A program made the position numbers and the translations under genes. DNA of 64,000 bases from Lineus longissimus (Eukaryota > Nemertea > Pilidiophora > Heteronemertea > Lineidae). The stretch is taken from positions 11,147,501-11,211,500 of the forward strand of contig NC_088323.1 of the NCBI RefSeq assembly GCF_910592395.1. The letters run 5' to 3'. This document shows, one piece after another, positions 7,616-52,960 of the stretch. The notes under the pieces are model-generated. The model was given only the letters and a program-made list of their open reading frames with translations. It was not told the DNA's origin and searched no databases. The first letter of the stretch is position 1; every line of letters begins with the position of its first letter.

Positions 7616-9770
7616 CATTTTATGTCGTTCATACTCTACCCAGGTCATATTTTGCATGTGTAATCTTATCGGACACAGCCGAGGAAAAATTAATCAATTT
7701 ATAATAGAAAAATGATTAGCTAGTTCACGTAGCTACACCTAGGCGGCGCCCCAATACAGCCTCTGCCTCGTGAAAGCCGCCATTACTCATATTTTTTCCT
7801 TGGCGCTTTGTTGCACAATTCGCCGAGTTTCTCCCGTAAATACAGCTAGATTAGAGCCGTTTCGGGTTGAAGAAGGACCTTCCGGGGACACCTTTCAGTT
7901 GAAGGTATTCTCTGGACGCGTGTGAGATCGTTCCTTTTCCATTTTCTCCCCGTTTTTTATCTTTGTGAGTGGTTTTTATCCACTTGAATTATATAAAGTT
8001 CCAGTATCTTCACGTGACCCAAAAAAGAAAAAGTTCACCCTGCTGCGTAGCTGTGGTGTATATATATAAAATTGTTTTATATTATCAGAATATATTAGGA
8101 TGGTTTTATTCCAGTCCTTATTATCTTCGTTTCCTTTTTCTCTGGGGTTTCCGCAGTGCCTCCGAATTGGTGATCGCCGGGTGTCCGGTGTGTCGGGAAT
8201 TCATAGCCCCCACCCCGTTCCTTCCCTGGGTCAGGGTACTGACAAGTCGGTCCCTGTTGGGTTGAGCAGTTCTGCCCCCGGGGTGACTTCTCCTTCTCCC
8301 GGTACTTCTGGGAAGAAGTTGAAGAGGTCTGTGCGGAGAGGGCCTAGAAAGCCTGGTCGGGGGAAGTCTTCGTCTCCCCCCTCCCTTTCCTCCGCCGGGA
8401 CCCCCGCTCTTCAGCGGCGAGGTCCCCGGGTCTCTGGAGAGGTTTTGCCCTCACCCGACCCCGTCCCCCAGGCTGGGAACCCCGCCTTCGGGGCTGTACC
8501 CCCTGGGGAGGTCTCGTCGTGGAGCATCGGATCAGGGTTTGGGGTTTGACCAGTTCCTCCAGCTCTCCAACGTTGAGAACCCTGGATCCGCTCCCAGCCT
8601 TTTCAGGCCGGTGAGCAGCGCCTCCACGGGTATAAGAGCCGTCTGTCCTTACAGATGTGCTCCCCTGTCCCCCTCCGGGGCTTTCGATGGGGTTGCGACC
8701 GCTCACATCCTTGGGCGTAACTGGGACTGCCAGTCCCCTCTCGTCGTCTGCGGTTGCCCCGGGGGACCACCATCCCTTCGCCATTGGACGGGCGGCACGC
8801 CCGACATCTTGTCCCTCCCTAGGGACGATGGTTCCTCCTTTGGCATCCCCTGGTGGTGCAGGGCCTCAGTTCACCGCCCCATCCCTGCCGCCCTTTTCCT
8901 TGCCGGGAGGTGTCTTGCCTGGTGTAGGGGCTTGGCGAGGGCGCATTGTGCGCGGGTGAGGGATCCACGTGTCCGCCCGCCTTGGGTGCGGTTAGGCTGA
9001 CCATTTTGTCGGTACGCCCCCACCCTGTCCCGTCTGGTCATGCTGGGGTTGAGGACGGGTCGGTTTCACTGACTCGCTCCCCCTCCCCCCTCCCATGCCT
9101 GCCCCATGGGAGACCTTTCGGGACCCTCGTCCAAAATTATCCGCTGGCCTTACGGCTGAGGCAGATGATTCAGCGCCTCACGGATCACCTGGGCAAGCGG
9201 CCTGTGGCTTTTGACCTAGGTCATCAGCCTATGGAATGCGAATTATCCGACTCACATTCCCCTTCTGGCCCGGCCTCGCAGGCCGATTTCCCCTCGGGGA
9301 GTGAGGACCCCACCATGGTGGCGGGCATGTGCGATCTTCGCGCTCTAGTTTGGCAGTATGTGCCGCTAGTCTTGTCCTCTCCCGACGCTTTACCCCGCGC
9401 TCGGTCGAGTCCTCTTCGATCTCTTCCGGGATTCCTCCGAGCAGGAACCGGACGCGGTCCAGGACAGGGCATTCCAAGAATTGCCCCCGTCCCGGCCCTG
9501 ATTCGAGCCTCCACTTGGTTGGACTCGGCTCTCACGGACACAGCTCCGTCCTGCGGGGGTCACCAGCGCGCCTTGGTCTCGACTTTACCGTCGACCGGAC
9601 CGGGCGCCTGGACACAGGCTGGGAAGTGCTTCACCACCTCTTCCCCCCGAGCCTTGCGTATCGTCCCGAATACTATCGGGTCTCTCCGTCGGGATCTGAT
9701 CCGGTGTCTTTGCCACGTGACTAAAGCGTCATCAATATCTTATGCAAATGACCTTGTGAGCTATAAATAG
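7616..9770 (+). mobile_element. Retroelement-like sequence with GC-rich Ser/Pro-rich gag-like region, copy 1
   Basis: The segment from TTTTATGTC near 7620 to about 8535 matches 36569-37500 at roughly 85-90% by eye. It comprises a leader of about 480 bp and then an abrupt change to very GC-rich sequence. In the latter, one frame (8100-8549) encodes a Ser/Pro/Gly/Arg-rich chain with GTSGKKLKRSVRRGPRKPG, and similar low-complexity frames run to about 9725. This composition resembles the gag-like ORF1 of DIRS or LTR retrotransposons, but I see no zinc knuckle, protease, reverse transcriptase or recombinase. A 5' fragment of a retroelement is the best guess. A GC-rich host exon family is the alternative. 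Confidence 0.45.
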
Positions 9771-17525: not shown

Positions 17526-19362
17526 TAAATTTGATGCGTAGACACATATTATATAAGCATCTCTTGATGTTGACAAAGATTTAGGTGTACTTTTCAGTTG
17601 ATGTTTATTACTGTCATAAAATTATTCTTTTCTCAAATAACCTTCACATATTTCACTATGTGTCCAAAATTTGGTATAAGGACCCCTGTTACGATATTTA
17701 GATGTCTCCAAAAAAATAGGTCAGTTTGAAATACTTCTCAATGTCTCTGAAGTCAAACTTCACTGACAATCAAAATTTCACTGACAGTGGCAAGCTTATA
17801 AATCATTAAGATTATGAGTGAGAGGATTATCACTATCCCGCGTGGAGCGCCACTGGACGGAGGTCAATTTTTGAAGCCGGTTAAAAATCCATTGATTTTA
17901 GTCTTTTTCTGCCTGGCCCTAACCGGGAGCAGCTGCCACCCAGCGGCCTTCGACCTCAACAAGATCAGAATGGCGGATAGAGAAATGAAAAACGATTTTC
18001 TCTGAATTTTCTCTCGAATTTCATCAAATTTTAGGCATGGGAGGAGAACCTTTTTGGCTCAACGGAAGTGATAAATGTCAACGTCTATGAGCAGCTAGTT
18101 AGATTATTCTAACATCAATCCGAAAAGTAAAAAAAAGGTGTTGTGTTTGGTGTATTCAATTTACACTGTGCGGAATTTCGTTGAGCAGTGCATTGAGATC
18201 TTTAAAATAGAAATAGGAAGAACATTTGATACCTATAATTTCGGCTTTGGTGGGTCATGGCGCATGGGCCCAACGCTCATAATGGCGGATTTAGGCCCTT
18301 GGGCTCCAGTTGACCTTGGCTATTTGCAAAAATGTATGTCTGTACAAAATTGCAGCTCTTCCTACCCTGTGTTTGTGTTCCTCATAGGCTGCATCATATA
18401 TCTAGTCTACCAAGGGCCAAATCATTAGTGTGGGCACATGTTATTTTAATAGACAACAGAAACTATCATGACCTTGAAATGCACAGAGGCCTGAGTGCAC
18501 TGGGCCTGTGCATTTGCTGTACATCTCAATGGCTACTGTACTGTTGCGGCTAGAGCCTAGGGTTATGGCAGTCTATATCGGAGGGTTAGGGAGGTGGTAG
18601 GGGGTAAGATTGGGGGTAGGGGCAAGGTTAGGCTGGATGGCCATTCTGGGTGCAGGAATGAGGGGTAGGGGTAGGGGTAGACCCACATGGGCGACGCCGC
18701 CAGGAGGCAGGATTGCCGAAGGGTGGGTCATTTTCCAAAGAAATCGAGGGCACAATCGGCATGATTTAGAAATATCTTTTTACCCAGGGTATTCATGGGC
18801 AAAATTAAGGGGGATCCCAGAGTAAGATAACTATTTTATGATCCCTTTTCTCTCCTGAAAAGATTGGTCTAGTTTAACAGGGGGTATGATTTCTCCGGTA
18901 GTTAAGTCCATTGTGTCAAGAATTTTAAAGGCATTCACACTTGTACCGTTACCACAACTGGATCATGATTTTTATTCATTTCAGAGTACTTACAAATCCA
19001 AATGGGAGTCATTCTCCCTTTGGAACTGCTGTCCACAGTTGGTTTTTCCCTGTTGTAGATTTCAACAGCTTTCAGTCTGAGTAAGTATAAAGAAATGAAA
19101 CAATAGGCAGCATATGCTTGTTCTCTTTAGAGTTGGGATCAAATGGTCCTGTTTCAGAATTACTATTTCTATTAATCAGACATCCATGACATATATATTT
19201 TTGATGGCATTTTGATTTTGTTTTCTCAAAACACCCACTTTCAGTTCAAGGAACACTTTTCTAAATTGGTTTTAATTTTAGTAGAGGTCTGCAATTGAAA
19301 AGAGTTTATGTTGTGTCAATATCTGTGCATGCCGTATTAACAATCTTTGGTGTTTATTTCAG
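17526..19362. other. Intergenic, possibly upstream exons of the bromodomain gene
   Basis: One segment is bounded by good splice signals: acceptor CATTTCAG just before 18985 and donor CTGA|GTAAGT at about 19080. Its open frames do not join the bromodomain exon in phase without a stop, so I do not call it. A G-rich stretch with GGGTAGGGGTAGGGG lies at about 18585-18690. Confidence 0.35.
18585..18690 (+). repeat. G-rich minisatellite, potential G-quadruplex
   Basis: GGGGTAGGGGTAGGGGTAG-type runs and related GGTAGGGGGTA words repeat over about 100 bp, with many closely spaced runs of three or more G on the + strand. Confidence 0.6.
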
Positions 19363-22300
19363 TGGCAACAGCTTCCATGATGGAGTCCGAGTGTCTGGAA
19401 TTGCTCCAGAGGGTTGCCCACTACAGAGGAGGAAGAATGAATAGAATTAAGATTGACCCATCAGTTTGGTTTAGATTACCAGGTAAATATCACAAATCAG
19501 GCCGGAGAAATCGGGCATGATATTATGAATCTTATTCAATCTTAGGTTTTTGACTCAGTTGCCTACAGGTGTTCGAAGATATTATGTGATTGCCTACCCA
19601 GAAACATCATGTATGTATTGTGGATAAACACTTGACAGTCTGTACTCAGATGTCCACAAAAGACAACTGGTATTTTCTGACACTTTGATAGCCACTGCAC
19701 ACTGCTTTGAAGAAATGAGATGATCAGAGCTCACTTCTAATACACACACTGAAGACGGCAAGTTAATGTTGCACTTCCACCACCACCCAGCTTTGCAATT
19801 TTGTGAGATGCCCTGGCACCTCCTGTAGTGTAGCTTATAATGTCCATTATTTCTTTATTGCTATCATCCTGTTTCAGTGAATAAAGATGATGCGCAAGGT
19901 TACTTCAATTTGATTCAGCACCCAATGGATTTTTCAACCATCCAAGGGAAAATAAAGGTGGGTAGCATTTGGATAATACTGTGGTAGCTCAAACAATGTT
20001 TGGGAAATTCAACCCATGAAGAAGTGAATGCTAAGACCCCCCCCCAGAGACACCAAATTGTAGACTGGTCGAAAATGCTAGTCAAATCATTGTTCACTGG
20101 TCCCAATTGGTGTGGTTGATTCCTCTAGGCCTCATAAGGGTGGCTGTGGTTGACTGGCATCTGCCTCTCACGATGTTCTGCTGCTGAATGACGTCACAGC
20201 TTCAATCTGGTTGCTCCATGATGTAATGATGTTGTGTCCTCTGGCATTCTCTGTTGGCCTCGAACAGTAGTGTTTTTAAGCTGGGTGGGCTGCATCATAT
20301 TGGAAACTCACAACTTCTCACTTGCAGATCACTAAATCCTATCACTTCCATTTCAGAGTGGTCAGTATAAAGACATTGAGGACTTTCATACAGACATGCT
20401 CCTCGTCAGAGATAATTGTGTGAAGTACAACAGAGATCCAGCAAGTCAGATTCGGGTTGACTGTGACACTGTCTTTGGCTTCTACACTGTGGAGTATGAT
20501 AAACTGAGGAGCAGGAAACCAGCAAAGGTATTATAGAAATGATGTACATGTACTGTTTCCCCCAAGAAATATTCTTCTCCTGTCCAAGGCTAATTATACC
20601 AGACCTGTGTAGCTGATGTCGCACAAACTGCTTTCAATGCCCTCTGAAGTCACTTCTTAAAATCACAGTCTGACCATTCTTTCTTTTATTTAGCCTCTTA
20701 TAGCAAGAGTACCAGTACGCTGAATATTCCCCTGTCATCATTAATTTAGCTTGATTTGATTGTACCTGTAATATCTTCAATTTTAAAGGGATAAAGTGAT
20801 CACTGCATTTTTAGTTCACATGTGGTCACAGATGTCAAAGTCATATGACACAGCAACTTGGGCTGTCTAAAGTGATTCATTTCATTACATTGTTCATTTC
20901 ATCCACCGGCTGAACACAATTTATTACCGTATCCTGACCTTTCATCACTTTCGGTTCCAGATAAAAGCTACCGGAACTGGCTGGGATATCGGAATGTATA
21001 GGTGTGCACAGAAAGAGGCAAAACTTGACATGGCCCATGCCAGTGCCATGAAAGTGGTGCAAAGCCAGTTTGAGAAGCTGGATGATGACATCAGGGAAAA
21101 GGAATAGTGTATTCGTGATTTGACTGCTGAGGTATGTTATCTTAACAGTAATTCTACAACAAAAGACAGCAGTACTCTACGGGTATCTCAGTCTGAGATA
21201 TATTATGTTACACTGAAATTTGTTACCTTGTCACATATAATTTTGTTGCAAAGCCAGCCTTGAGGAGCAGTGTAGGCCTATACAATCTTTCTGATACGTA
21301 CAGGCAACCATTACCAGTTTTGAGCCTCAATCAAGAACTGGTATCCTGAACAAACGTTTATATTGCCCTCTTAGCAACATTTTTCATCCCTTGGGACCCC
21401 CAATGGGTTGTTGCGGAAAAATGGAAACAACCGGTAATCAGCATCGAATACATTAGGCCTTCAGTTCTTTGGCACTCAGTTCTTGAAAGATGCATTTATC
21501 TGTATGTGCTAATTTTGTTTGGTTTCACTTTAAGATCGAATGGAAGGAAAGACTGAGAGCTGAATTTGTACCCCCGGTTAAACTAGACCAATATGTTCAG
21601 GTAGAGATGAAATCGAAACTACGGTGTGTGACGAACCTGACCCGTGTTCTGCCAAACGACTCTGCGAGATGCTACCTGAGCAAAACAACCATGACTAAAC
21701 GAGTTGACGAAACATACAAGGCATTGGAACCAATTCATGGAGCTGATTCCAAAAGTGTGCAGGATAGACTGTGGCTGACGTTGGTTAAAAAAGCAGGGAA
21801 GGGAGCCATTCAAAAGTACTATTCAAATTTATCGAGACCCAAGGAAGTCAGAGTAACAAAGCATAAGGAATGGGTAACGGAAGCAAATGTGTTCCGGTGT
21901 GTCAAATACATGTATCGTAATGGTTCAATATCCAGTCGAAAATACACTTCATTGCGGCAGGCAGATCTCAGTTTCGAATGTAGTGGTGATGAGCTGATGA
22001 CATATCAGGAACTTTGTTCATATGTTGAAAAGTATTTGTAAAGAGCTTCAGGTTCATGAAGTTGCAGGTGTTTCCTTCGAAGACACCCTCCTGAAGATAG
22101 CATCAGTCTATTTAGAGATAGATGAGAAGTTACAGGTCAATAGGCAATCTTTGAATTGGCTGAAGAAGGAAAGAGTCTATTTTTCGATATCTGTTGGGGC
22201 AGATGGTGCTCCTGCCTCGAAGTTGAAAACGCACAAGTCTGTTCTATTGTCTTTTCTGAATTTGCCTGAGAAGGTTAATAGCTGCATGTACCAGTTTTTG

Positions 22301-23680
22301 TTGTTCGGGGCTGATATTCCTGAGGACCATGCTTCTATTCTCAACTATGTTGCCGAAATAGCTTCAAACATGGAGTCCATTGAGAAGAAAGAGTTCATGA
22401 TTGGATCCACTGTGGTCAGGTTTACTATTGAACTTGTTCCGGGTGACTGCAAGTGGATAGCCACTGCTTGTGGCGAGCTCAGCAATGCAGCTACCTATCC
22501 ATCCAGTTATGGCAATGTGCGAAAAGATGACCTGTCAAAGCTTGACGGAAGTTTAGGTGGCAGTGAATCCACCTGGAAACCTTGGTCATATCTTGATCGA
22601 CTAGCCGTGGTAAAAAAAGTGGCCTTGAAAAAACAGGAGGCCAGCAGGGGTGATGTAGTGACTAGATACATTGCATCCTTGCATTCTAGGCAAGAACATG
22701 TACCTACACTTGGCATTTACTCGGAGCACTGTTATATCGATTCTCTTCATCTTAAAAATAACATCTGTGCTCAGCTTCACCAGGCTATTTTGACTGAAGC
22801 CCTAATACTAACTGATGATAAGGTCATCAGGGGTGGCATTGATTTTAAGAATAATGCTTTCATAGAATCTCCCTTTGGCAGATACCTGGTTTGTCTTCGG
22901 GATGAAGTTCACGCTGGTCGTATTTTCATACAGGTCAGAAGGTGGTTTACAGAGAATTGTGCCGCTCTGTCAAAAGGTTCCTGTGGCACAAGGCTTCTTG
23001 GTGTAAGGTTTACAGGAGAAGACTCCTTCAAATTTTGCCAGGGTTACCCCTGCTTGATCAAGGCTGTGGGACAAAATGGGACTCCTGATAGACAATGCAG
23101 ACTCCTGGTATTTCACTTTGCCTACACGGTTGTGCGCGAAGCTATTGGTCTTGCTTCAAAGATCAAATTCAGTCAGTTTGAACTGCAACGATTGCAGACT
23201 GTTTGTCGACAGTACCATGCATGTCACGTTCTTTTGATGACTGGAGCAAACTTGACAACTTGGCATCTTGGATATGTTGTTCGATTTCATGCGGAGGTTC
23301 TTTATTACCGCTTAGGAGTTGGTCTAGGTACCAATAATATGCAAGGACGGGAGGCCAAGAACAAACAATTGAAGGAGTATGCGAGATTCAGTACCCCCCA
23401 GAACAAGTGGGGTATGATATTCCGGCATGAATATTTTGATCTGTATTGGCTCAAAGAGCATGATATGGATGTTGTTGTGAAAGATTTGGTGAAGAGTAGG
23501 TCCAGAGATAGATATCACATCAATCCAAATGTGAAAGCTGACATGTGTAAGTGTGGTTTAGCCACTGAGGGTGCATGTCTATTCTGCAATCATCCCACAA
23601 TGAAGCTGATTGAAGAAACCTGTGAGAAAAGACGAATCTCACCAGAAATGAGGAAGGCACAGCGTGATGTTGTCTGGTAG
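19363..23680 (+). CDS. Bromodomain-DDE transposase-like fusion gene, 5+ exons
   Basis: Exons 19363-19482, 19878-19957, 20357-20527, 20961-21131 and 21535-23680 are all bounded by AG/GT sites. Introns are 395-433 bp with phases 1, 0, 0, 0. From ATG 19377 the frame runs about 890 codons. Residues ~1-120 form a bromodomain, which reads acetyl-lysine on chromatin. YFNLIQHPMDFSTI is the ZA loop/PMDF signature, and Asn87 in NCVKYN is the acetyl-lysine-binding Asn. The pattern is closest to BRD7/BRD9. A Lys/Glu-rich linker leads into the large last exon with a transposase-like core. Two defects interrupt it: TAG at 21105-21107 (codon 168) and a 1-nt shift near 22033. Phase agreement across the TAG-bearing exon argues that it is a true exon. 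The 5' start may lie further upstream. AATAAA occurs at 23775. Confidence 0.7.
19377..20527 (+). CDS. Bromodomain exons (three exons)
   Basis: The domain is assembled from 19377-19482 (ECLELLQRVAHYRGG to VWFRLP), 19878-19957 (NKDDAQGYFNLIQHPMDF to GKIK) and 20357-20527 (SGQYKDIEDFHTDMLLVRDN to KLRSRKPAK). Joined in phase they show ZA loop, helix A, DFHTDMLLV helix B, the Asn of KYN, and helix C (CDTVFGFYTVEY), with no stop. Length is within the normal 100-120 residues. The usual WPF shelf is replaced by VWFRLPV, as the FFAFPV stretch is in BRD7/9-type domains. Acetyl-lysine binding is inferred from the retained Asn and Tyr. This is the best-supported host-type coding sequence in the window. 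Confidence 0.85.
21535..23680 (+). CDS. Large transposase-like exon with candidate DDE triad
   Basis: The exon opens after a clean acceptor (CACTTTAAG|ATC) and encodes about 715 residues. Residues 1-166 are basic and helical. A frameshift near 22033 (dropping one T restores the frame) leads into a second open block that starts at 22022 in the other frame. Numbered from 22022, the candidate catalytic residues are Asp61 (SVGADGAP), Asp142 (LVPGDCKWIA) and Glu444 (MQGREAKNKQL). A CYIDSLHLKNN stretch at 237-247 lies between the last two. A C-terminal CKCGLATEGACLFCNH (C509, C511, C519, C522) is a probable zinc ribbon. The order of elements parallels RAG1/Transib enzymes, although hAT-like or other DDE folds with a long insertion are equally possible. 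I do not recognise the exact family. Catalytic activity is unproven. Confidence 0.65.
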
Positions 23681-23689
23681 AAAGGCCTT

Positions 23690-23960
23690 TGCATTCCTGT
23701 TAACCGTTAACACAAAAAGTGCTATATCTCCTTAATGCATGGATCAGTGCCAAATTTTTATCATAGGTACATCTAATAAAGCCACATAACATAGCATACA
23801 GGTTTTTGATTTGACCTATTTTTCAAGGTCGCAGAAGTCAAATCGTGTAAATTGGCCGATATTGGCACATTTTGCAAATAATGAAGCTTTTGACTTAAAA
23901 CTTGGTACAATTGTACCTCCTAAAGATTCATGCACTTGATTGGGAACAACATTTACATAG
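23690..23960 (+). repeat. 301-bp-family fragment
   Basis: It shows the monomer order (TATCTCC..., ATCATAGGTACATCTAA, GGTTTTTGATTTGACCTATT, TTCAAGGTCGCAGAAGTCAA, TGGCCGATA) without head or tail. It sits about 10 bp after the stop codon of the fusion gene and supplies an AATAAA at 23775 that could act as its poly(A) signal. Confidence 0.65.
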
Positions 23961-24480
23961 TGTTGGCTGTCGTCATGTCACGATGCATTGTAACTCTGAC
24001 GGTTTTACATTAGTGTAACTACATGTAATGGCAAAAAGCTGTGAGCAGTTAAAGGTGGATTGGAATATCCTGTAATGGCCAAATTTCTATGGAATGTGCA
24101 TTGATAGCCCTGCATCAGGTTTTAATGGCACTGCCTTGGTCAATAGCCACTGGTGTATAATACAGGAAAATGATATTTGTTGTATTGTTGTACAAGGATT
24201 CATATTTGCCAGATTTACATAGATTATCAAAAGGAAATGAGTTCAGTTGTAAATTGGTTGATTGAAAAACGTGTCCCAAATGTCAAGTTTTGAATGCTCA
24301 ATTTTATTGTCCACAACTTCTTAATGTGTTGAGGGTTAAAAAAACAAGATCCCAGACATTAAAAAAATTCTAATAATAAAGTCATTATTTAGTTATTTCA
24401 ATTTTCAATTTTAAACTATTTGAATTTCCCACCACACACAACTTTAGATTAGTTCCACATGTGGCCGCTAGGGATTTTTT
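23961..24480. other. Intergenic, no feature recognised
   Basis: AT-rich sequence without a credible ORF or repeat. Confidence 0.4.
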
Positions 24481-24515
24481 GATGACGTAGATCAGGTCAG
24501 TCAGAACAAAGCAAG

Positions 24516-24881
24516 ATGGCATACAGTTCAGAGAGTGAGAGCAGTGAATTGGAGGATGTTTTGGTCGATACAGAAGGATATTTAAACGTTTAGCCGTACA
24601 TGTTCGAGCCATTAATATCACTAGATCATAATGAGAGTGATCATTCGGACGAAAGTGATTAGAATTTGTGGTTAATCAATTTGCATGGCAGACATGCCGA
24701 TATAGCAAAGAAGACATTGATAGACGGTTGCAGATGCATAACATGTATGATTTTTGAACAGACTAATGTTGCACAATATTGTTTCGCCTCGTCTGTGTTG
24801 TATCGCCAGTTATGTCATGACGCTGAACTACTATTGAAATGTGACGGTATTATGCACAATCATCTTGACGTGACGATATAA
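24516..24881 (+). pseudogene. Broken acidic/cysteine ORF, possibly P2X7-tail-like
   Basis: From ATG 24516 one frame runs 122 codons, interrupted only by TAG at 24591-24593 and TAG at 24660-24662. It starts MAYSSESESSELEDVLV, a Ser/Glu acidic leader. After the first TAG comes PYMFEPL, and after the second a cysteine-bearing stretch with GCRCITC. An acidic leader, a Y-x-FEP motif and a C-x-C-x2-C cluster recall the family of invertebrate proteins resembling the cytosolic tail (ballast domain) of P2X7, but the later Cys/His pattern is not clear. A THAP ORF faces it from the opposite strand. Alternatively it is an unrelated transposon ORF. Confidence 0.35.
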
Positions 24882-25056
24882 TGCCGTGCAACGTTAGATA
24901 GGCCTAGATGTCAGATGACAATAATCTGTCATTGACAGTGGCTGTCACTGACAATGACCTGTGTCGCTGTCACCTTGCTATGGCTGGAACGCAAAAAGAC
25001 ACTATGCAGTATCACAGGCCCCAATAGGGCCTACACATTATGTATAACAACCGACC

Positions 25057-25362
25057 TCAGCAGCCTCGGGCATTAAATGCAATTGACATGGTTGGAAAAG
25101 CTGTTTTTAACAAGTGGCATTTAATATTCAGTTGGATGCATATATCCGGCTTCATGTGATAATCCGTATCGATAAAGTGATCACTGCAAAGTTTGGCCGA
25201 AGGCCCAGGCTTCCAACACTCCAAACGTTTGCACTTCCGAATCCACAGCTTCCTCCTCTCTCGTTCAACTGGCTTTGGAAATTCATGAAAATGGGTCCCA
25301 TCCGTCATTCGATTGTTCTTTGTGCTATCCTTGACACAATTCGGAGCCACACAATACACCAT
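25057..25362 (-). CDS. Intact THAP-domain protein, 101 aa
   Basis: The ORF starts MVYCVAPNCVKD at 25362 and ends GC then stop at 25057. It holds a complete THAP domain: Cys4, Cys9, Cys59 and His62 (LCSDHF) fit C-x4-C-x49-C-x2-H. Pro29 (HEFPKP), Trp40 (RRKLWIRKC) and Phe63 are in the conserved positions, and an AFPTM box at 88-92 matches the AVPT(I/M) closing motif. THAP domains bind DNA through this zinc-dependent fold. No catalytic or coiled-coil region follows, so it is either a stand-alone domain protein, the first exon of a longer gene running toward lower coordinates, or the leftover DNA-binding part of a transposase. Its reading frame is undamaged, unlike the copy at 13308. Confidence 0.75.
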   Translation of the reverse strand: MVYCVAPNCVKDSTKNNRMTDGTHFHEFPKPVERERRKLWIRKCKRLECWKPGPSAKLCSDHFIDTDYHMKPDICIQLNIKCHLLKTAFPTMSIAFNARGC

Positions 25363-25825
25363 AGTGAATGAAACACATTACTTCCAGGTGTGCATAATTA
25401 ATTAAGGCCCTCCTGCTTTTATGATTGGATGACATGTACAGATAACCTGATCTACATCACAACTTTTGCTGAACCCGCCGCCTGGCTCTAACAAGCCTGT
25501 TGCTAGCCTGATTAGGTAATCAAGTTGTCAAACACATAATTGGCTATATCTTCAAAATGGATGGAGCTAATTAGTCTCCGCCATCGGCTGAGACTTTTGT
25601 ATTAGGGTATTATTCTCTTCAAGTTATTCTCCTCAAGAAATTATTCCAGCAAACTCTCGTCTCCAGGTGAAAGCTTCATATGTACATGAACACGGCAATG
25701 CATTGCAAAACATCGATAAAACGAGGGTGTCCATGAACTAAGAAGTCAATCTGGGTTACAGCCGCGAAAGTGCTATGGGCATGCATAGCGCAATACATGT
25801 AAATTTTTAACCAATAAACCTCGCC
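25363..25825. other. Intergenic
   Basis: No gene recognised. ACCTGATCTACATC at about 25446-25459 is an inverted partner of GATGACGTAGATCAGGT near 24481-24497, so the convergent ORF pair between them may lie within one decayed unit. Confidence 0.3.
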
Positions 25826-26546
25826 GATGACTGGTGCCCCGCGTTATGTGTATTACATATTTGCTGCACATATGGAGGAACATAATGGATAAAGACCAGG
25901 GACTAGTCTACACCATCGAAGCATTTTCTATAATACCGGTATAAAATATAATATAATATTTGGAGTTTATGGGCTATGAAATAAGAAAAAACGGCAGTGA
26001 ATTAAAGCGGCTGAGTTTCAAGAATGTGTTCTTCCCTTCTGGACACTTTATGTTGCCTTGATCAGTCGTATTTCGCACATAAACCATCGCTCCGCTGAAG
26101 TGAAAGTGCGATGTTTTTGTTTTGTTTTGTTTTGTTTTGCATGGCTGTGTGCATTCACGGCTGATCAAACCTCGCCATACCGGCACGATGACTGGTGCCC
26201 CGCGTTATGTGTATTACATATTGGCTGCACATATGGAGGAACATAATGGATAAAGACCAGGGACTAGTCTACACCATCGAAGCATTTTTCTATAATACCG
26301 GTATGAAATATAATATAATATTTGGAGTTTATGGGCTATGAAATAAGAAAAAACGGCAGTGAATTAAAGCGGCTGAGTTTCAAGAATGTGTTCTTCCCTT
26401 CTGGACACTTTATGTTGCCTTGATCAGTCGTATTTCGCACATAAACCATCGCTCCGCTGAAGTGAAAGTGCGATGTTTTTGTTTTGTTTTTGTCAACATG
26501 CATGGCTGTGTGCATTCACGGCTGATCATCCATGCACTGGATTTTG
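25826..26546 (+). repeat. Tandem duplication of a 361-bp unit
   Basis: GATGACTGGTGCCCC at 25826 recurs at 26187, and the following 350 bp are nearly identical between copies, apart from small changes and a length difference in a GTTTT repeat (about 26115-26140 versus 26476-26492). Two copies only, head to tail. No coding frame is shared convincingly. Confidence 0.85.
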
Positions 26547-27551
26547 GTCGGAGAGCATTTTTAGTTCCTGGACGTATAGTTAGTCCACGTTATTCGGTGA
26601 AAATGTGCTGTAGGCCTACCGACGTGGATCTATAGCACTTTCCACAGTATGTGGCGAATTTAAGTCGGCCTGTGGCTCATATCTTTATTTACCTCTTGCA
26701 GTAACCATGTCATCGCCGCCATCGTCATCATCATCATCAGCTTCACCCTTGAAGATAACGTACTCCACAACCACAAATTACACCACCCCTTCAAAGTAAA
26801 CTTCATCACCAACTTCAATGACATCATCCCCATCACCCTTGAAGAGATCGTCCACAAGCTCAAATCACACTACCCCTTCGAAGAAAACATCGTCGTCGTC
26901 ATCGTCACCAGCCACGCCAAGCAAACAGGATGTTGTCGTTGGAACGCAGCATAACAACAAACGGGCCATTTCAACCAAATGGCAATAAAAACAATAAAAG
27001 TCACCCAAACATTTTCGGGATGAGTATAGGCCTACTGCAAACCTAATCGCAATCATAACTATTGTCAATGATATATATTGCTTGAAATACACCAGCAATC
27101 AATAAACCAAATTAATATTATTCATTTATATTTATTCATTCATTCCTTCCATTCATACGAAGCGCACATTCAACTGCGGCTTCACATCCCTTCCTCAAGG
27201 GCTCATCTCAAAATGTCCTTATGAAAAAGACGACATAATTCGGTCTCCCCCTTCACCCCTCCCCGCTCTTGCAACAAAACTAAACAAATGTCCCATAATT
27301 CTTCAGAACATAAATTTATATCACTCTCAACCCCCTCCCTACCACTAAGACCACATTATTTCGTCTTTTTCCCCTCCAATCAACCGAATCGATCGTCTTA
27401 TCCCAACATCCACTCTCACCCAGACAATTTCTCAATCCCCCTTCCATTCACAATGCGAACAATACCCCTACAATGAGGCGGAGACTCCAGAGTCTGCTAA
27501 GACTCAACTGACAATTCTAGTTGCATTTGGTTTTCTGTATTGTATAAAGTG
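26547..27551. other. Intergenic with simple-sequence stretches
   Basis: CAT/CGT-rich trinucleotide tracts occur at about 26708-26750 and 26890-26910, and AT-rich and pyrimidine-rich sequence at 27100-27480. Small ORFs here follow the repeat composition. Confidence 0.4.
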
Positions 27552-27895
27552 TTAGGTACACTTTTGAAATCGTCTTACAGCAGAAAATGGCAAAAAACCT
27601 TGAGTTATGGCCTTTAAAATTTGGTGTTGTTTTGAATAGTCTTTCTTGTACATGTACATGCCTGACACTAGTGAGATGTGGCAATGAACACCAGGAGAGG
27701 TTTCAACTTCACAGATGTCAAGACTGCCATGTTCAAGGGACATTTCTTTCCAGATGACATCAGCACAATCCATATGATCACCCTGCATCCATGTCAGCAT
27801 TGCTGGAACTTTGGAAATGCCTCCTATAATTTGCATTTCTAGGACATTTGCCCCCTGAACATCTGCCCACTGGATGTTTGCCCCCTGACACCCCA

Positions 27896-28190
27896 AAGGA
27901 TATCACTGTGTCTGATATAGATCCTTCAGGGCGGGGGGGGGGGGCAAATGAACTAGGGGGAGATGCATTTCCCCGCCTCCTCCAGATACAGTAGCAGATT
28001 CTTATCTTGAATCTGATTCTTCCGCAGTCTGTTGATTTTCGGACATTTGCTCCCCTGATGAAAACTGACTGATATTGGTTTATCTGAAGTCCTTCAAGGG
28101 GGGAGATGTCCCAGGGGGTCAACTAATGTCCAGGAGGGGGGGCAGATGTCCAGGGAGAATGTCCAGGAGGGGGGAGGGGGAGGATGTCCT
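27896..28190 (+). repeat. G-rich imperfect minisatellite
   Basis: Words like ATGTCCAGGAGGGGG and GCCCCCTG recur, with a run of 12 G at about 27933-27944 and several G-runs at 28098-28185. Low-complexity ORFs on both strands (27552-28359) come from this composition. Confidence 0.6.
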
Positions 28191-28312
28191 GATACCCAGT
28201 TTGTTAATTTGGTCAATCCTTGCTTTTCTGGTAGCATCCAGGAAATTGGAGGAACAAGACACTTGCTGGAGATCCATTCATTCAAAGAAAGGAAATAGCA
28301 ACAAAAACGTTT

Positions 28313-29168
28313 TTACTGGGCAATACCATATTTATTCAACACCTCATATCCAGATGTGAGGGAGAGTCTCTTGGTGTTGCTATGGTACTTCAGGGTGAAG
28401 GGGTGGCTCTCATTCACGAGGATGCTCAACTTATTTCCCTGAAATGAAAAGGAACAATCAATCAGTATCATGAGATTGAAGTCAAATGCACTTACATCAT
28501 GATATTAGAGTGTCTCACATTACATTTAAGTTCATACTCTATCAATTAAAGCCTGCTAGCAGGATCTTTACTACACCAATTGGCCATCATGGGAATGTAG
28601 GGAGTTATTCGTGCATTCCAACCCTTGTCACCTTTATTCACACATCGGGATAAATTTTAGTCCGGAGGAGCCTGGGATGCAATTTACCTGTCGGTCTGTC
28701 TTCCTCAGCAGGCTATTCCTTTCTAAACCCTCTACCCTGCCCCAGAAGTTAAAAAGGATCACCACCTTCTCTGCGCTGGTGATGGTGTGTCGAGGTGGTT
28801 CTTGTCTCTCTAACTGTGGTCCGGAATGAGTTTGTCGTCATCAGGCCCCGGATCTGGTCGAAGACGCAACTTGGTACATCTCTGTAATGAAACAAGAATT
28901 GCAATACATACAGCTAACATTCTAAGTGGTGGTGTCCAGGGAAACAGCTACCATATTGGTTCGGGGCGGACAAAGACACCATTTTTCCTGTTGCCTGCCC
29001 CCCCCCCCCAAAAAAACGTTTTTCTCTATTTCCGTTGAGAATAAAGAACTCATGAAGCTCATGAACCTACTGAGCAATTCGCAGACTCTTCCGTGGACCA
29101 TCGGACCTCATCATGCGGAGGATCTGCTTGTGAATGAGCCTGATCTCATCCACAACCATAGGATAACT
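28313..29168 (-). pseudogene. Unrecognised multi-exon gene fragment
   Basis: Three minus-strand segments look like exons. 29168-29070 follows a CATTCCAG acceptor and reads SYPMVVDEIRLIHKQILRMM and on. 28881-28688 follows TTTCATTACAG and ends at donor CAG|GTAAAT. 28438-28313 follows TTTCATTTCAG and reads GNKLSILVNESHPFTLKYHS and on, to a TAA. The last two join in phase 0. In the middle segment the first 22 codons (RCTKLRLRPDPGPDDDKL...) lie in a different frame from the last 40 (AEKVVILFNFWGRVEGLE...), so a 1-nt indel or an extra splice site must be invoked. I recognise no family. Codon quality and splice signals suggest a true gene or a recently dead one. Confidence 0.4.
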
Positions 29169-29851
29169 CTGGAATGACAAAAACATATGGAAAATATGGA
29201 AAGAAAAAAAAAATATGCGCGGCAATTTCTTCACAGGGAGGGGGTTAACAATTTGGGCAATAACTTTCTATAGTAACATTTCTTTCTAATCCAAGTAGGC
29301 CGCACAGAGGGCCTGCACCATCTAAAGGTCAAGGGTACAATCTCAGTTATTTCGTTCGCACCTCCACCCCCTGGACGTTAGGCCCCCTGTGAGTACTAAA
29401 CCCGCAGTTATATCAAACCAATTTTTGCGCACTCTGGCGGGCTGCTTCCCGCTTCCCGCTTCCCGCCACGTCAATTATGTCAATCAATCAAATTTCAGGC
29501 GGTATAGGTGGTGATGTCATTATTGCAATTTGGTACCATGCCAGGACACGGCTAATCAAAGTTAGTAACTGTTTATACAGCTGATTAGAAAGCAATGCGT
29601 AAGTGGCTTATGACAACATGTTATTTTCAATTTTTGATTGATTAGACTTTGCTCTTTCATAAACACAATGTAGAAGCTGACGTCAGTGTTCGCCACCTCT
29701 TGCAAATTACCATTCGGAAGGCTTCGGTAACTGTCGGCTTGGGATCAATATTTCCCTTTCTAAGCTCGGGAATGACACAAATAACCTAATTGACGTAGGC
29801 CTACTATGCTTTTGACGTCTCTGTATAAATTGGAAATTAGAAATACAACTG
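29169..29851. other. Intergenic
   Basis: Nothing supported. An A-rich run is at about 29203-29215, and a short CTTCCCGC triplication at 29448-29466. Confidence 0.4.
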
Positions 29852-30300
29852 TCAGTTCATTAACTCCTTAATTTTTATGAAGTGGTGAAACCAACCGCTT
29901 GATGCACAAAAGTGATGAAGAATTGGCATAGATTGTCCAATTTCCTCAGGCCGATCTTCCGTAAGTGCATCCCACCGAATTTGAAACAACCCGTCGCCTT
30001 TTCTTGGACGTCGCGAACGGTTACAGACAGACGCTTTTCTCTTTGGTGCAGCAACCATCGATGAAGGTCATCTTCCACATTTGGCCACAGCTCAACCAGT
30101 TTAGGTTTCACTTTACGTGCATCACCATTATTTGCCTGTTCCAGGTGGGCCCTATTCCATCGTCTAATCATTTCGACGGGTATCCTGTAGTGGTCAGCAA
30201 ACTGATGGAGGCTGTTGACTGTCCCATTTGCTAGGGCCGTTTCTAGATCTCTGAAATATTGCAGTTTTTCTGTGATACTAAAACTTCTTTTTTAGGTTTT
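29852..30300 (-). pseudogene. Pogo-like transposase N-terminal fragment
   Basis: Reading leftward from about 30285, the frame gives KLQYFRDLETALANGTVNSL and then HYRIPVEMIRRWNRAHLEQ. This parallels KIAYLRDLEAALLNGTVNTM and NYNIPVQTLRKWHLQHLQ of the pogo enzyme at 5037-5336, so it is a second, diverged lineage of the same family. The frame continues to about 29875 and then dies; the CENP-B and DDE parts are absent, and I find no terminal inverted repeats. The 5' edge is cut by the hairpin at 30293. Confidence 0.65.
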
Positions 30301-47817: not shown

Positions 47818-48628
47818 TTTACCTTTTGCTGTGTATTTCTGAGCAATCATGCATGTGGGCTTTATAGGGGCCTATATCCACGCTTGAGTGATTCCGCAGA
47901 ATAGGAACAGTTGCGCCCCAATGGAGGGCCTATTTCTGGTATTTCCAGCAATGTATAAGAAGTATCAGACATACGCCCAACTTTTTGCAGGTATGAATTT
48001 TCCATACTTAGAGCATTGATATATTTGAAACTTGGTTCAGGTGATCAGTATTGAGTGTAGAGAATGTTGTATGCAGCATTTGATGTAATTATGAAAATTT
48101 TTCAGAGACACTTTTCTGACTGAGGTACCCTCAGGGTATTTGTAGCCCCTATCAAAAGCTCATTATATCCTGTCATAAATCATGATAATGCGGGTTTCTT
48201 TATTCATATACCTGAAATACATTATTTGATCATAAATCTATCCTATTTAGATACAATGTTAACCTTTTATGTACCGACAATGATACATTTGAGGTTTCGT
48301 ACTGGTTTATCGAACATTATTCGAAATAATGTTAATATTTTCAAAGTTACTGGTGTCTCTGGTTAAAGCCACACCTTTGACTAGAAAGCAGCATTTCTTA
48401 TGGTAAATTGCATTACCATTAAGTGGTGCCAGCTATAGTTGGTGTTGATACATGACATGCATATACCTCAAATTACTGTTTTTAATGGAGCACGACAAGA
48501 CCGTCAGTCAGTTTAGAATATCACAAGCTATTGTCTGACACAAAGTGTAATGTACAACAACAGAGGTGATATTAATAGAACGTTGTGTTTTTCACCAGTT
48601 TAAAATCAGTCTGATTTGTGACGATATT
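47818..48628. other. Intergenic
   Basis: AT-rich, no gene or repeat recognised. Confidence 0.4.
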
Positions 48629-50012
48629 GTTGGGTCGTCGCTAACGCAGTGCAGACCCTTTTTGTCAGTTTTTCCATGGATATGTGTGTGGCAGCATATG
48701 CCTACATACCATGCCTAGCAATGGCCATTTTTACTTAGAAAAAACATTTTAATCATTTTTTTCGAAATTCGCTTCCTACGCATTGTGCGAAATACATCAA
48801 GCCTCTTTGTCACCAATTTTCAGCAAAATTGGAGTAAAAGTGTAGGCGGTGAATCGGTTTGTTTCAGGTCAATGGCTTTGGCCAATCGGGAATGCTATGC
48901 AAAACACCATTCTGTATACGTGACCACGCACACGAAAACATGCCCCAATAAAATCGCTTATTGCACCCAACAAAACCACAGACAATCAAATATCTCACGC
49001 GTATCACGTAACTAAGACTCTTATTAGATACGTACTTCTGTATCTCTCCGTGTCGTTGTGTTATTATTTCATAATCACCGATGGAAGTTGGGAATTTTCG
49101 CTAAATGTCAGCGTGCGATCGCCATTTCCTGACGTGTTTACAACTTGTCAGAGGCGGAGCGTAACTCAAAAATTAGCATCAGGAGTATGTATATTCAAGC
49201 TGACGGCGCTGCCTTATTCTTTCTACAATTGCATGTTAATGATTGTAAATCAGCAGGCGTGACCTATACATGTTCCAGACTCCATGTCACGTGGTTAGCC
49301 CATCTGCTGTGTCCAATTTGCACGCCAAAGAAATCACAACAAATTCAAATCTCAGGCTGCATGTTGATTGGCTGCAGACTGAGTGAACAGGCAATATCCA
49401 ATTCGCCTGCCGTGAAGTGTGTAGCCCTTCGCAAAATAGTGCAGACAAACATTATCAAAAAAGGGAATTAATTGACCGAATATGACGTATCTTTTTAACG
49501 GAATCTCAATTTCTAAACATTTTGAAATTTTCTCTAGAGAGAAAATGCAATATTTTTGCTGGATAAAGTATTACAATTTTCTTGTAATAGTGATTAAACA
49601 TTTGGGGCCAGGGTAATCATTGGAGCATAGTAAAATGTGGAATGATTAGCCTGCATGTCAGATCAGTTCAGTGGTCTCCGTTTTTCGATATCTTGCACCA
49701 TTTAGGAGCTAGAGGCCTTCAAATTTGGCACTTCCCAGCAAACGTGGTTCTAACAATAAAATATTCAAGTCTCTCATCCCCCTGTCGCCACTGCGCAATA
49801 CTTTCAACCGCTGCAACTACAAGCAAACAAGAAGCAGCTATCCAAGCGGCCACTATTGCCCAAAGACACAGTCCATTATAATTCACAGATCACAACACTA
49901 CTGTTGTAAAATGTTTGCGTCCACTACTCACAGCGATCCGACATATTCCTTCCCATGTTGTGGTATCTTAGAGTCCTAGCCAAGACAACGACCCATATTC
50001 GCCTAACGGCTT
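48629..50012 (+). mobile_element. Helentron-like 1.3-kb element, copy 1
   Basis: From GTTGGGTCGTCGCTAACGCA to CTAACGGCTTG it matches copy 2 (51285-52579) at about 95% outside a variable middle (49654-49946 here). TGGGTCGTTG near the 5' end and CAACGACCCA near the 3' end of the family are inverted partners, and a GCC-TAAC-GGC hairpin precedes the terminus. Two frames (48785-49015, 49145-49471) are open in both copies but show no domain. Confidence 0.7.
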
Positions 50013-50688: not shown

Positions 50689-52960
50689 GGCTCACCGGTA
50701 CGGTAAGTCTATACAACACCGTAGTATTTGTCGTCCGTCATTGTCGTCGTCCGTTGTATCCTATTTCAAAAACAGTGGCACGTTTCTTATCCAATAGGGC
50801 TATGTACTCAAAACTTTGCAGGCATGACCCTCCTAGGTCAGATGACCTTTGACACTGAATTGCGATCTGGTCTGATTCTTAACTGGGCCACCAGGGGGCC
50901 AAAACTGAAAAACATAAATAGTGTGATATCTCACTTATTAGTAATTTGTTTTTGATGACATTTTTATGCTTGGTGCTTCTAGCAAGGATGTATATCACAT
51001 ATCAGACGTGTTTTTGATTTGACCCACTTTTCAAGGTCAAATAGGTCAATTTGCCGTTTGAGTGTGACTGTGGCACGTTTCTTAACTGGTAGGGCTATGA
51101 GCTTGGAAGTTTTTATGCATGACCCTCTAGTTCAGACTACCTCTGACAGCAAATTTTGGTCTGATGTGATTCTTGACTTGGCCACAAGGGAGCCAAAACA
51201 CAAAAAGTGTGATATCTCACTTATTAGTGATTTGTTTTAGATGAAATTTTTATGGTAGGTACTCCCAGCTTAGATACATCACATGTTGGGTCGTTGCTAA
51301 CGCAGTGCAGACCCTTATTGTCAGTTTTTCCGTGGATATGTCTGTGGCAGCATATGCCTAGATACCATGCCTAGCAACGGCCATTTTTACTAAGAAAAAA
51401 ATATTTTTAATAATTTTTTTCGAAATTCGCTTCCTTCGAATTGTGCAGAATACATCAAGCCTCTTTGTCACCAATTTTCAGCAAAATTGGAGTAAAAGTG
51501 TAGACGATGAATCGATTTGTTTCAGGTCAATGGCTTCGGCCGATCGGGAATGCTATGCAAAACACCATTCTGTATACGTGACCACGCACACGAAAACATG
51601 CCCCAATAAATTCGCTTATTGCACCCAACAAAACCAGAGACAATCAAATATCTCACGCGTATCATGTAACTAAGACTCTTATTAGATAAATACTTCTGTA
51701 TCTCTCCGTGTCGTTGTGTTATTATTTCATAATCACCGATGGAAGTTGGGAATTTTCGCTAAATGTCAGCGTGCGATCGCCATTTCCTGACGTGTTTACA
51801 ACTTGTCAGAGGCGGAGCGTAACTCAAAAATAAGCATCCGGAATATGTATATTCAAGCTGACAGCGCCGCCTCATTCTTTCTACTATTGAATGTTAATGA
51901 TTGTAAATCAGCAGGCGTGACCTATACATGTTCCAGACTCCATGTCACGTGGTTAGCCCGTCTGCTGTGTCCAATTTGCACGCCAAAGAAATCACAACAA
52001 GTTCAAATATCAGGCTGTTTGTTGATTGGCTGCAGTGTACAGGCAATATCCAATTCGCCTGCCTCGAAGTGTGTAGCCCTTCGCAAAATAGTGCAGACAA
52101 ACATTATCAAAAAAGGGAATTAATTGACCGAATATGACGTATCTTTTTAATGGAATCTCAATTTCTAAACATTTTGAAATTTTCTATCGAGAGAAAATGT
52201 GATATTTTTGCTGGATAAAGTATTACAATTTTCTTGTAATAGTGATTAAACATTTGGGGCCAGGGTAATCATTGGAGCATAGTAAAATGTGGAATGATTA
52301 GCCTGGCACGGCGAGGGTGTGCTGTGTCCAGGAAATGGCGGTAAATGGGTTGTTCTCGGGCCGGGTTTCTCTAGCGGACTGATATCCGAGTTCGTCACAA
52401 TAAGCGATGATATAGGTCTGTGTTCACTGGAAAAAGATGCGTGTCAAAGTGTCGAAATATGTAATGAATTATTTCATGATGGTTTATTTTGTTTTTTTAG
52501 TGACATTCGTGCATCCTTCCCATGTTGTGGTATCTTAGAGTCCTAGCCAAGACGACAACCCATATTAGCCTATGGCTTGTCATAGAGGTTTTCGATTTGA
52601 CCTATTTTTCAAGTTCGATGAGGTCAAATGGCGTAAAATGGCGGTTTGAGCGTAAATGTGGTACGTTGCGTAACTGTTAGGGCTATGGGCTTGAAACTTT
52701 GTACACAAGACCCCTTAGTACTGAATTTTGGTCTGATCTGTTTCTCGACTTGGACACCAGGGGGCAAAAAGTGAAAACCTAGAAAGTGTGATATCTCGCT
52801 CATTAGTGATTCGTATTCGATGAAGTTGTTATGGTTGGTGCTCCCAGCAAGGATACATTACATATTATAAAGGTTTTTGATTTGACCTACTTTTCAAGGT
52901 CCATTGTCAATTAAGTCGTTACCTAAATACCGGTGAGCGCAATGGCCCCCGGCATTTTCA
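50689..52960 (+). mobile_element. 301-bp-family Helentron-like element, interrupted
   Basis: The head GGCTCACCGG at 50689 is followed by GTCGTC-rich sequence and monomers marked by CACGTTTCTT at about 50777 and 51075. The element is split at 51284 by copy 2 of the 1.3-kb element and resumes at 52580 in exact register (ACATCACAT before, GTCATAGAGG after). It ends in CCGGTGAGCGCAATGGCC and a TTTTCATTT flank near 52960. Without the insertion it is about 980 bp. Confidence 0.75.
51285..52579 (+). mobile_element. Helentron-like 1.3-kb element, copy 2, nested
   Basis: This starts GTTGGGTCGTTGCTAACGCA and ends CAACCCATATT, then hairpin AGCC-TAT-GGCT and TG. It lies inside a 301-bp-family element whose sequence reads through on either side with no visible target duplication. 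The variable middle (about 52306-52512) is unrelated to that of copy 1, although both flanks are about 95% identical. Confidence 0.75.

Follow-up and report, generated by a model that had tools for sequence, protein, structure and literature searches.

A DNA transposon of the nemertean Lineus longissimus that encodes a bromodomain ahead of a predicted RAG1-type transposase core

The RAG1-RAG2 recombinase originated as a transposon, and why its partner subunit should contain a histone reader remains a matter of debate. RAGL elements are described as convergent RAG1L-RAG2L gene pairs with CAC ends like those of the recombination signal sequence (RSS) (PMC7204232). Their target site duplications (TSDs) measure 5 bp according to PMC7204232 and PMC9435367, the former giving 5 bp for Transib as well, and PMC9435367 reports a RAGL element whose two ends are unlike beyond their tips. 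Here we analyzed a 64,000-nucleotide stretch of the Lineus longissimus genome (the window; C16:11147501-11211500 of a 391-Mb assembly). It holds a dead, decayed and truncated copy of a multicopy DNA transposon at 17837-29865 (+). We are highly confident that this is a copy of a Lineus cut-and-paste transposon with a RAG1-type core, many copies of which carry a linker and a bromodomain in an apparently single spliced gene; this confidence covers the copy number, the ends, the target duplications, the gene order, the similarity in predicted fold and the purifying selection that once acted on the bromodomain (seen over short stretches).

The Lineus element shares with RAG1-RAG2 the presence of a chromatin reader in the system. 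Unlike the PHD finger, which sits in RAG2, the Lineus reader is a bromodomain located inside the catalytic protein itself. It matches PF00439 and retains the conserved pocket Tyr and Asn, as do the bromodomains of polybromo, TAF1, BAZ2B, BRD9 and BRD4, but differs from all of these in being part of a DNA transposon, where it precedes the transposase.

The window copy and its gene

Element sequence amounts to 8.7 kb in the window, on either side of a later insertion, and neither terminal inverted repeat is present. The closest copies are 92 to 97% identical to it across 17837-24327 and 27615-29865. Two of them (C7 and C9) extend beyond its left border and two (C7 and C10b) beyond its right border. 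An inverted-repeat search inside the window did not reveal the ends of the element because this copy has lost both.

Exons 1 to 3 (19363-19482, phase 1; 19878-19957, GYFNLIQHPMDFSTI; 20357-20527, with the CVKYN motif; all +) have AG/GT borders, are in phase and encode a bromodomain, as previously described. Together with exon 4, read as far as its stop, they matched PF00439 with an E value of 3.6e-19 and 69 bits (cut-off, 21.7). Linker exon 4 (20961-21131, +) is in phase with exon 3 and with the acceptor at 21535, where the last exon (21535-23680, +), encoding the predicted RAG1-fold transposase core, begins. Exons 3, 4 and 5 are joined in phase 0 throughout, with canonical borders. The preliminary description was right about the phase into the last exon but overlooked an in-frame TAG in exon 4 (21105-21107, +), and the "giant exon" that it reported consists of two frames (21535-22041 and 22001-23680). 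A coiled coil was suspected in the linker by eye only.

P0001 (LOC135493817), an NCBI model from Lineus longissimus and the closest protein, matched the window at 91 to 94%, exon by exon. It comprises bromodomain and core in one chain across all five exons, without the TAG and without the frameshift. P0001 fits the C9 copy, to which it is identical in the bromodomain stretch, and the model ends early because an insertion of about 4.7 kb splits the C9 core exon. That insertion (L013 plus L014) has 29-bp inverted ends (93%). At the place of the TAG, both P0001 and the C7 copy have Glu. Compared to the C7 copy (98.0% identity over 4309 compared bases), the window copy carries an extra base at 22013 (+) and is missing 15 nt after 22075. 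Due to the extra base, the exon-4 frame stops at the TAA at 22039-22041. Thus, with the TAG in exon 4 and the frameshift in the last exon, the window copy in its present state is unable to produce the joined protein.

The core ORF (open reading frame) yielded at least 73 matches in the genome, corresponding to at least 38 loci (matches less than 8 kb apart were merged into one locus, and the counts are lower bounds). Twenty of the 38 loci, the window and 19 others (one as two pieces), were compared at length. Group A comprises the window copy, C7, C9, C10a, C10b, C17, C5, C4 and C9b; the 11 diverged loci (L018 to L028) include group B (L020, L022, L023 and L025) and group C (L019 and L021). 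The real ends emerged from copy-to-copy comparison, while a blind 14-mer scan for end pairs in the divergent loci returned no convincing pair. Terminal inverted repeats are present at both ends (CACAGCGCC/GGCGCTGTG and CACTGTGCTGCC/GGCAGCACAGTG). Direct comparison established the left end of group A, CACAGCGCCTCGAAACC, in three copies and its right end, CCTGAGGCGCTGTG, in five; the left end has seven zero-mismatch occurrences in the genome, and the C7 copy is 9.9 kb long. The group B copies measure 7.9 to 8.05 kb, are 98 to 99.8% identical to each other and extend from CACTGTGCTGCC to GGCAGCACAGTG. Group C starts with CACAGCGCAGC, as deduced from the comparison of L019 with L021, and a similar sequence in L024 was assigned as its left end by resemblance. 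The tips begin with CACTG in group B and with CACAG in groups A and C. Further inward, CAGTTC is common to the four left ends examined, 42 to 43 bases from the tip, and GACGTCAGCGCCA is common to the right ends of groups A and B, at 62 to 63. These subterminal blocks differ, and the two ends are therefore unlike beyond the tips.

Exact 3-bp TSDs flank five of the seven copies for which both ends were seen (TAT in C7, TCT in C9, TTA in C10a, GAA in L020 and ATA in L023), and none of the seven has a 5-bp TSD. A sixth 3-bp TSD (TTT, C17) depends on assigning to C17 a left end that lies 30 kb from it. Being multicopy, with inverted ends and TSDs of fixed length, the element is a class II cut-and-paste DNA transposon. 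Relatives of the core with no listed bromodomain were found in the corals Porites and Dendronephthya, in the sea anemone Nematostella and in additional sequence collections; at the sensitivity of the searches run, phages, plasmids, viral contigs and prokaryote genomes yielded none.

The transposase core, its partner gene and their affinities

The catalytic candidates named in the preliminary description, D61, D142 and E444 (numbered from the Met at 22022), lie at 22202-22204 (GADGAP), 22445-22447 (VPGDCKW) and 23351-23353 (QGREAK), all on the + strand, and are invariant in 13 aligned rows. In a wider alignment of 29 rows, both Asp residues are invariant and the Glu column falls outside the 90% list, several rows ending before the Glu. 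In the structural model of the C7 core, the first Asp is on strand 236-247, the second directly follows strand 313-324 and the Glu is part of helix 624-636. The models bear out the suggested RNase-H fold: the core is predicted to adopt it with D, D and E (D244, D325 and E627 in the C7 model) in place. The C-terminal Cys4 cluster was also found as described; it is a CxCx7CxxC motif, CKCGLATEGACLFC, at 23546-23587 (+).

The best fold matches of the predicted core were RAG1 and Transib. Both had been among the profiles proposed for comparison; the RAG1 family profile in Pfam (PF12940) gave no match to the core. Residues 128 to 670 of the model match RAG1 460 to 1006, and the fold match takes in most of the RAG1 core. 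Much weaker fold matches were obtained with P element transposase and hAT (Hermes), which also differ from the Lineus element in their ends and in the length of their TSDs (8 bp for both P element and hAT). No Pfam transposase family matched the window core or 10 relatives at an E value of 1, nor P0044, P0045, P0048 or P0051 at an E value of 10. NCBIfam returned no significant match to the core, and sequence searches of the PDB turned up nothing useful for it. A genome search with PF12940 returned six matches at two other places and none at the 38 core loci. The RAG1-like sequences at these two places (G000:C7:11998413-12000092 and C16:11365392-11368190) contain stops, and the one on C16 sits about 150 kb past the window.

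A second gene (ORF2) is arranged tail to tail with the transposase gene in five subfamilies (group A, group B, L018/L024, L026/L027 and L028). The group A form has four exons, which encode about 205 residues; in group B, where the gene lies at 8176-8625 (-) of L020, an open stretch of 142 residues covers the last three exons. The remains of ORF2 in the window span 28313-29171 (-) and consist of a remnant of exon 2 (29079-29171; tblastn, 97% to the C7 copy), exon 3 with a broken frame (28685-28883, borders approximate; tblastn, two pieces) and exon 4 to the stop (28313-28441, borders approximate; tblastn, 93%). Exon 1 is lost, since its counterpart in C7 (9186-9386) lies beyond the truncation (C7 position 9187). 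The presence of ORF2 in group C is uncertain because the stretch of L021 that matches (8983-9548) is 84% identical to L026 and absent from L019; this match may come from another element. ORF2 had no Pfam match at an E value of 10, hence no kelch or PHD match. A search of NCBIfam with the group B form alone was also negative, and the PDB gave nothing significant. Its product may be a functional stand-in for RAG2.

These features set the element beside several known groups. It is possible, but unlikely, that it represents an ordinary though diverged RAGL or Transib element that acquired a bromodomain. This explanation would fit a predicted RAG1 fold that covers most of the RAG1 core, CAC ends resembling the RSS heptamer (CACAGCG, CACTGTG), subterminal blocks that differ between the two ends and a convergent second gene, all of which recall RAGL elements. 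However, the TSDs are 3 bp long instead of the 5 bp given in PMC7204232 and PMC9435367, and the core has no PF12940 match, while the same search finds true RAG1L at two other places. In addition, the partner gene is small and has no Pfam match, where RAG2L has kelch repeats and mostly a PHD finger, and an hhalign comparison of the core with one Lineus RAG1L (a single-sequence template) was negative. The C-terminal motif, CxCx7CxxC, also differs from the Cx2Cx3GHx4C of RAG1L. RAG1 has a zinc-binding CxxC after the second Asp; in the Lineus core, as judged by eye, this seems to be replaced by PSSY/PSSF. From Transib (HzTransib), the element is distinguished by its 3-bp TSD, its second gene and its bromodomain, and the likeness between the two is one of predicted fold only. 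By these membership tests the element is not RAGL and misses the TSD length of Transib; by fold and form of the ends it is like both.

EnSpm/CACTA transposons have CACTA/CACTG-type ends and 3-bp TSDs. As the Lineus ends (CACTGTG and CACAGCG) and 3-bp TSDs look similar, membership in an animal branch of EnSpm/CACTA was considered. The RAG1-like fold would then be common to that group, which is absent as a structure among the fold matches. The core and its relatives match no Pfam transposase, in a comparison that includes no animal CACTA profile, and we judge this assignment improbable. We regard it as an even bet that the element instead belongs to neither RAGL nor Transib but to a third lineage of transposons with a RAG1 fold, one that has its own TSD length and partner gene and gained a bromodomain in nemerteans.

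The bromodomain within the element

A search of the genome with PF00439 gave 47 matches, 11 of which are no more than 8 kb from a core locus. All 11 are upstream of the core on the same strand (none downstream, none on the opposite strand); they serve 10 of the 38 core loci, compared to 0.018 matches expected. When exon-level matches were added, bromodomain exons were present at 18 of the 38 loci. Seven of the nine group A loci have at least two such exons (C10b has lost its 5' part, and only a scrap of exon 1 is left in C9b); bromodomain exons also occur at 5 of the 11 diverged loci (L018, L024, L026, L027 and L028) and at 6 of the 18 remaining ones. A custom bromodomain profile detected no exons in L019, L020, L021, L022, L023 and L025. 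A linker-like exon also occurs in diverged copies and precedes the core without a bromodomain in L019, L021 and L020. In C7, C9 and C10a the bromodomain exons lie between both ends, and in C5 and L024 they lie downstream of the left end. The bromodomain thus belongs to the transposon and is encoded between its own ends (C7, C9 and C10a).

The intron that splits the bromodomain is at a similar place in four branches (profile matches stop at 34-35 and resume at 30-33). The acetyl-lysine pocket of bromodomains includes conserved Tyr and Asn residues. The group A bromodomain contains CVKYN and GYFN, and the pocket Asn and the Tyr of the ZA loop are kept in all four branches; the Tyr preceding the Asn is Phe in L018/L024. 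In a tree of the core, all Lineus rows and P0002 form one clade (100/99). Labeling this tree by the presence of the bromodomain requires four changes. One of them is introduced by P0019, which probably models the L018 locus, where bromodomain exons are present. A single gain of the bromodomain before the Lineus radiation, followed by losses, would explain this distribution; the base of the clade is poorly settled. Between branches (C7 versus L018, L024 and L027; L024 versus L027), nonsynonymous differences (pN, 0.20 to 0.30) are far fewer than synonymous ones (pS, 0.82 to 1.12; 43 or 23 codons). Low pN relative to pS signifies that selection kept the bromodomain while the elements moved, and these short stretches thus show the sequence signature of past purifying selection.

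It is very unlikely that the element encodes bromodomain and transposase in separate genes and that their joining is mere appearance. In favor of this reading, groups B and C do manage without a bromodomain, but the in-phase exon junctions with canonical borders, the single P0001 protein over five exons and the position of all 11 nearby bromodomain matches upstream on the core strand speak against it. The preliminary description correctly saw a bromodomain joined to a transposase-like core, but the host gene that it proposed, a chromatin-reader/transposase chimera in which host exons captured a transposase, was rejected on copy number, ends and TSDs and is hardly credible: although introns split the bromodomain as in host genes and NCBI annotates one copy as a gene, there are at least 38 loci, terminal repeats, 3-bp TSDs and near-identical group B copies, four branches have bromodomain exons next to the core, group A is without constraint and the copy in the window is defective.

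Several observations weigh against a bromodomain-bearing, RAG1-type transposon. The six loci of groups B and C have no bromodomain, and therefore the core moves without needing one. Within group A, the bromodomain is without constraint (pooled pN/pS, 1.24, few changes), and L018 and L024 differ in it by two nonsynonymous and no synonymous changes; such a lack of constraint within branches is the expectation for copies decaying after landing. The evidence that bromodomain and core are joined comes from splice sites in matching phase and from NCBI gene models, one of which (P0004) has half a bromodomain, below the Pfam cut-off. No sequence method ties the core to RAG1: the PDB profile search, like Pfam and the hhalign comparison, gave no match. 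As for the ends, L022 and L025 (two of the seven copies with both ends) have no exact TSD, the left end assigned to C10a sits 3.7 kb upstream, behind an insertion, and ends were not seen in most of the diverged bromodomain branches (L018, L026, L027 and L028; left end only in L024).

The later insertion in the window copy is 3.3 kb long (24328-27614), where the closest copies have about 100 bp (97 to 125 bp). It contains a THAP-domain ORF (25060-25377, -; PF05485, E value of 1.8e-12), perhaps from another transposon, and a tandem pair with a unit of 361 to 362 bp at 25825-26528 (97% identical over 344 bp). An identical 18-nt sequence, GATAAAGTGATCACTGCA, occurs in an intron of the element (20790-20807) and in this insertion (25171-25188). 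Elsewhere in the window, a direct repeat of about 1 kb (48628-49653 and 51284-52305) is 95% identical. In the NCBI gene model P0051 (L. longissimus LOC135485889 isoform X2), linker and core exons from a group B element are joined to the N-terminal part and the radical SAM part of an Elp3-like gene; a host-transposon fusion transcript and a gene-model artefact are both possible.

A possible role for the chromatin reader

In the mechanism that we propose, the transposase would bind both the subterminal motifs and the CACAGCG/CACTGTG tips. The core would pair the two unlike ends and cut at the CAC border via its D-D-E site, in the manner of RAG1 and Transib, and insertion would follow with a 3-bp stagger. 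The bromodomain would bind acetylated histone tails and hold the complex on open chromatin, a role of the same kind as that of the RAG2 PHD finger for RAG1 but exerted in cis. That the bromodomain guides the element to acetylated chromatin is a tentative proposal, in which we have less than even confidence. Group B, which has no bromodomain, moved recently too, and the reader would therefore steer rather than catalyze.

A limited literature search returned no title on a fusion of a bromodomain with a DNA transposon or on a nemertean bromodomain transposon, and we make no claim that this family is new to the literature. The element is a relative of RAG1 by fold whose histone reader is of another kind and sits in the transposase protein itself, and in a single genome some branches lack this reader. 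Branches with and without the bromodomain constitute matched pairs for the question of whether a chromatin reader steers landing. If the element is indeed a third lineage, RAG1-type transposases would have been coupled to histone marks more than once, through the PHD finger in RAG2 and through the bromodomain here. Chromatin reading would then be a recurrent need of such elements and not a later refinement of V(D)J recombination.

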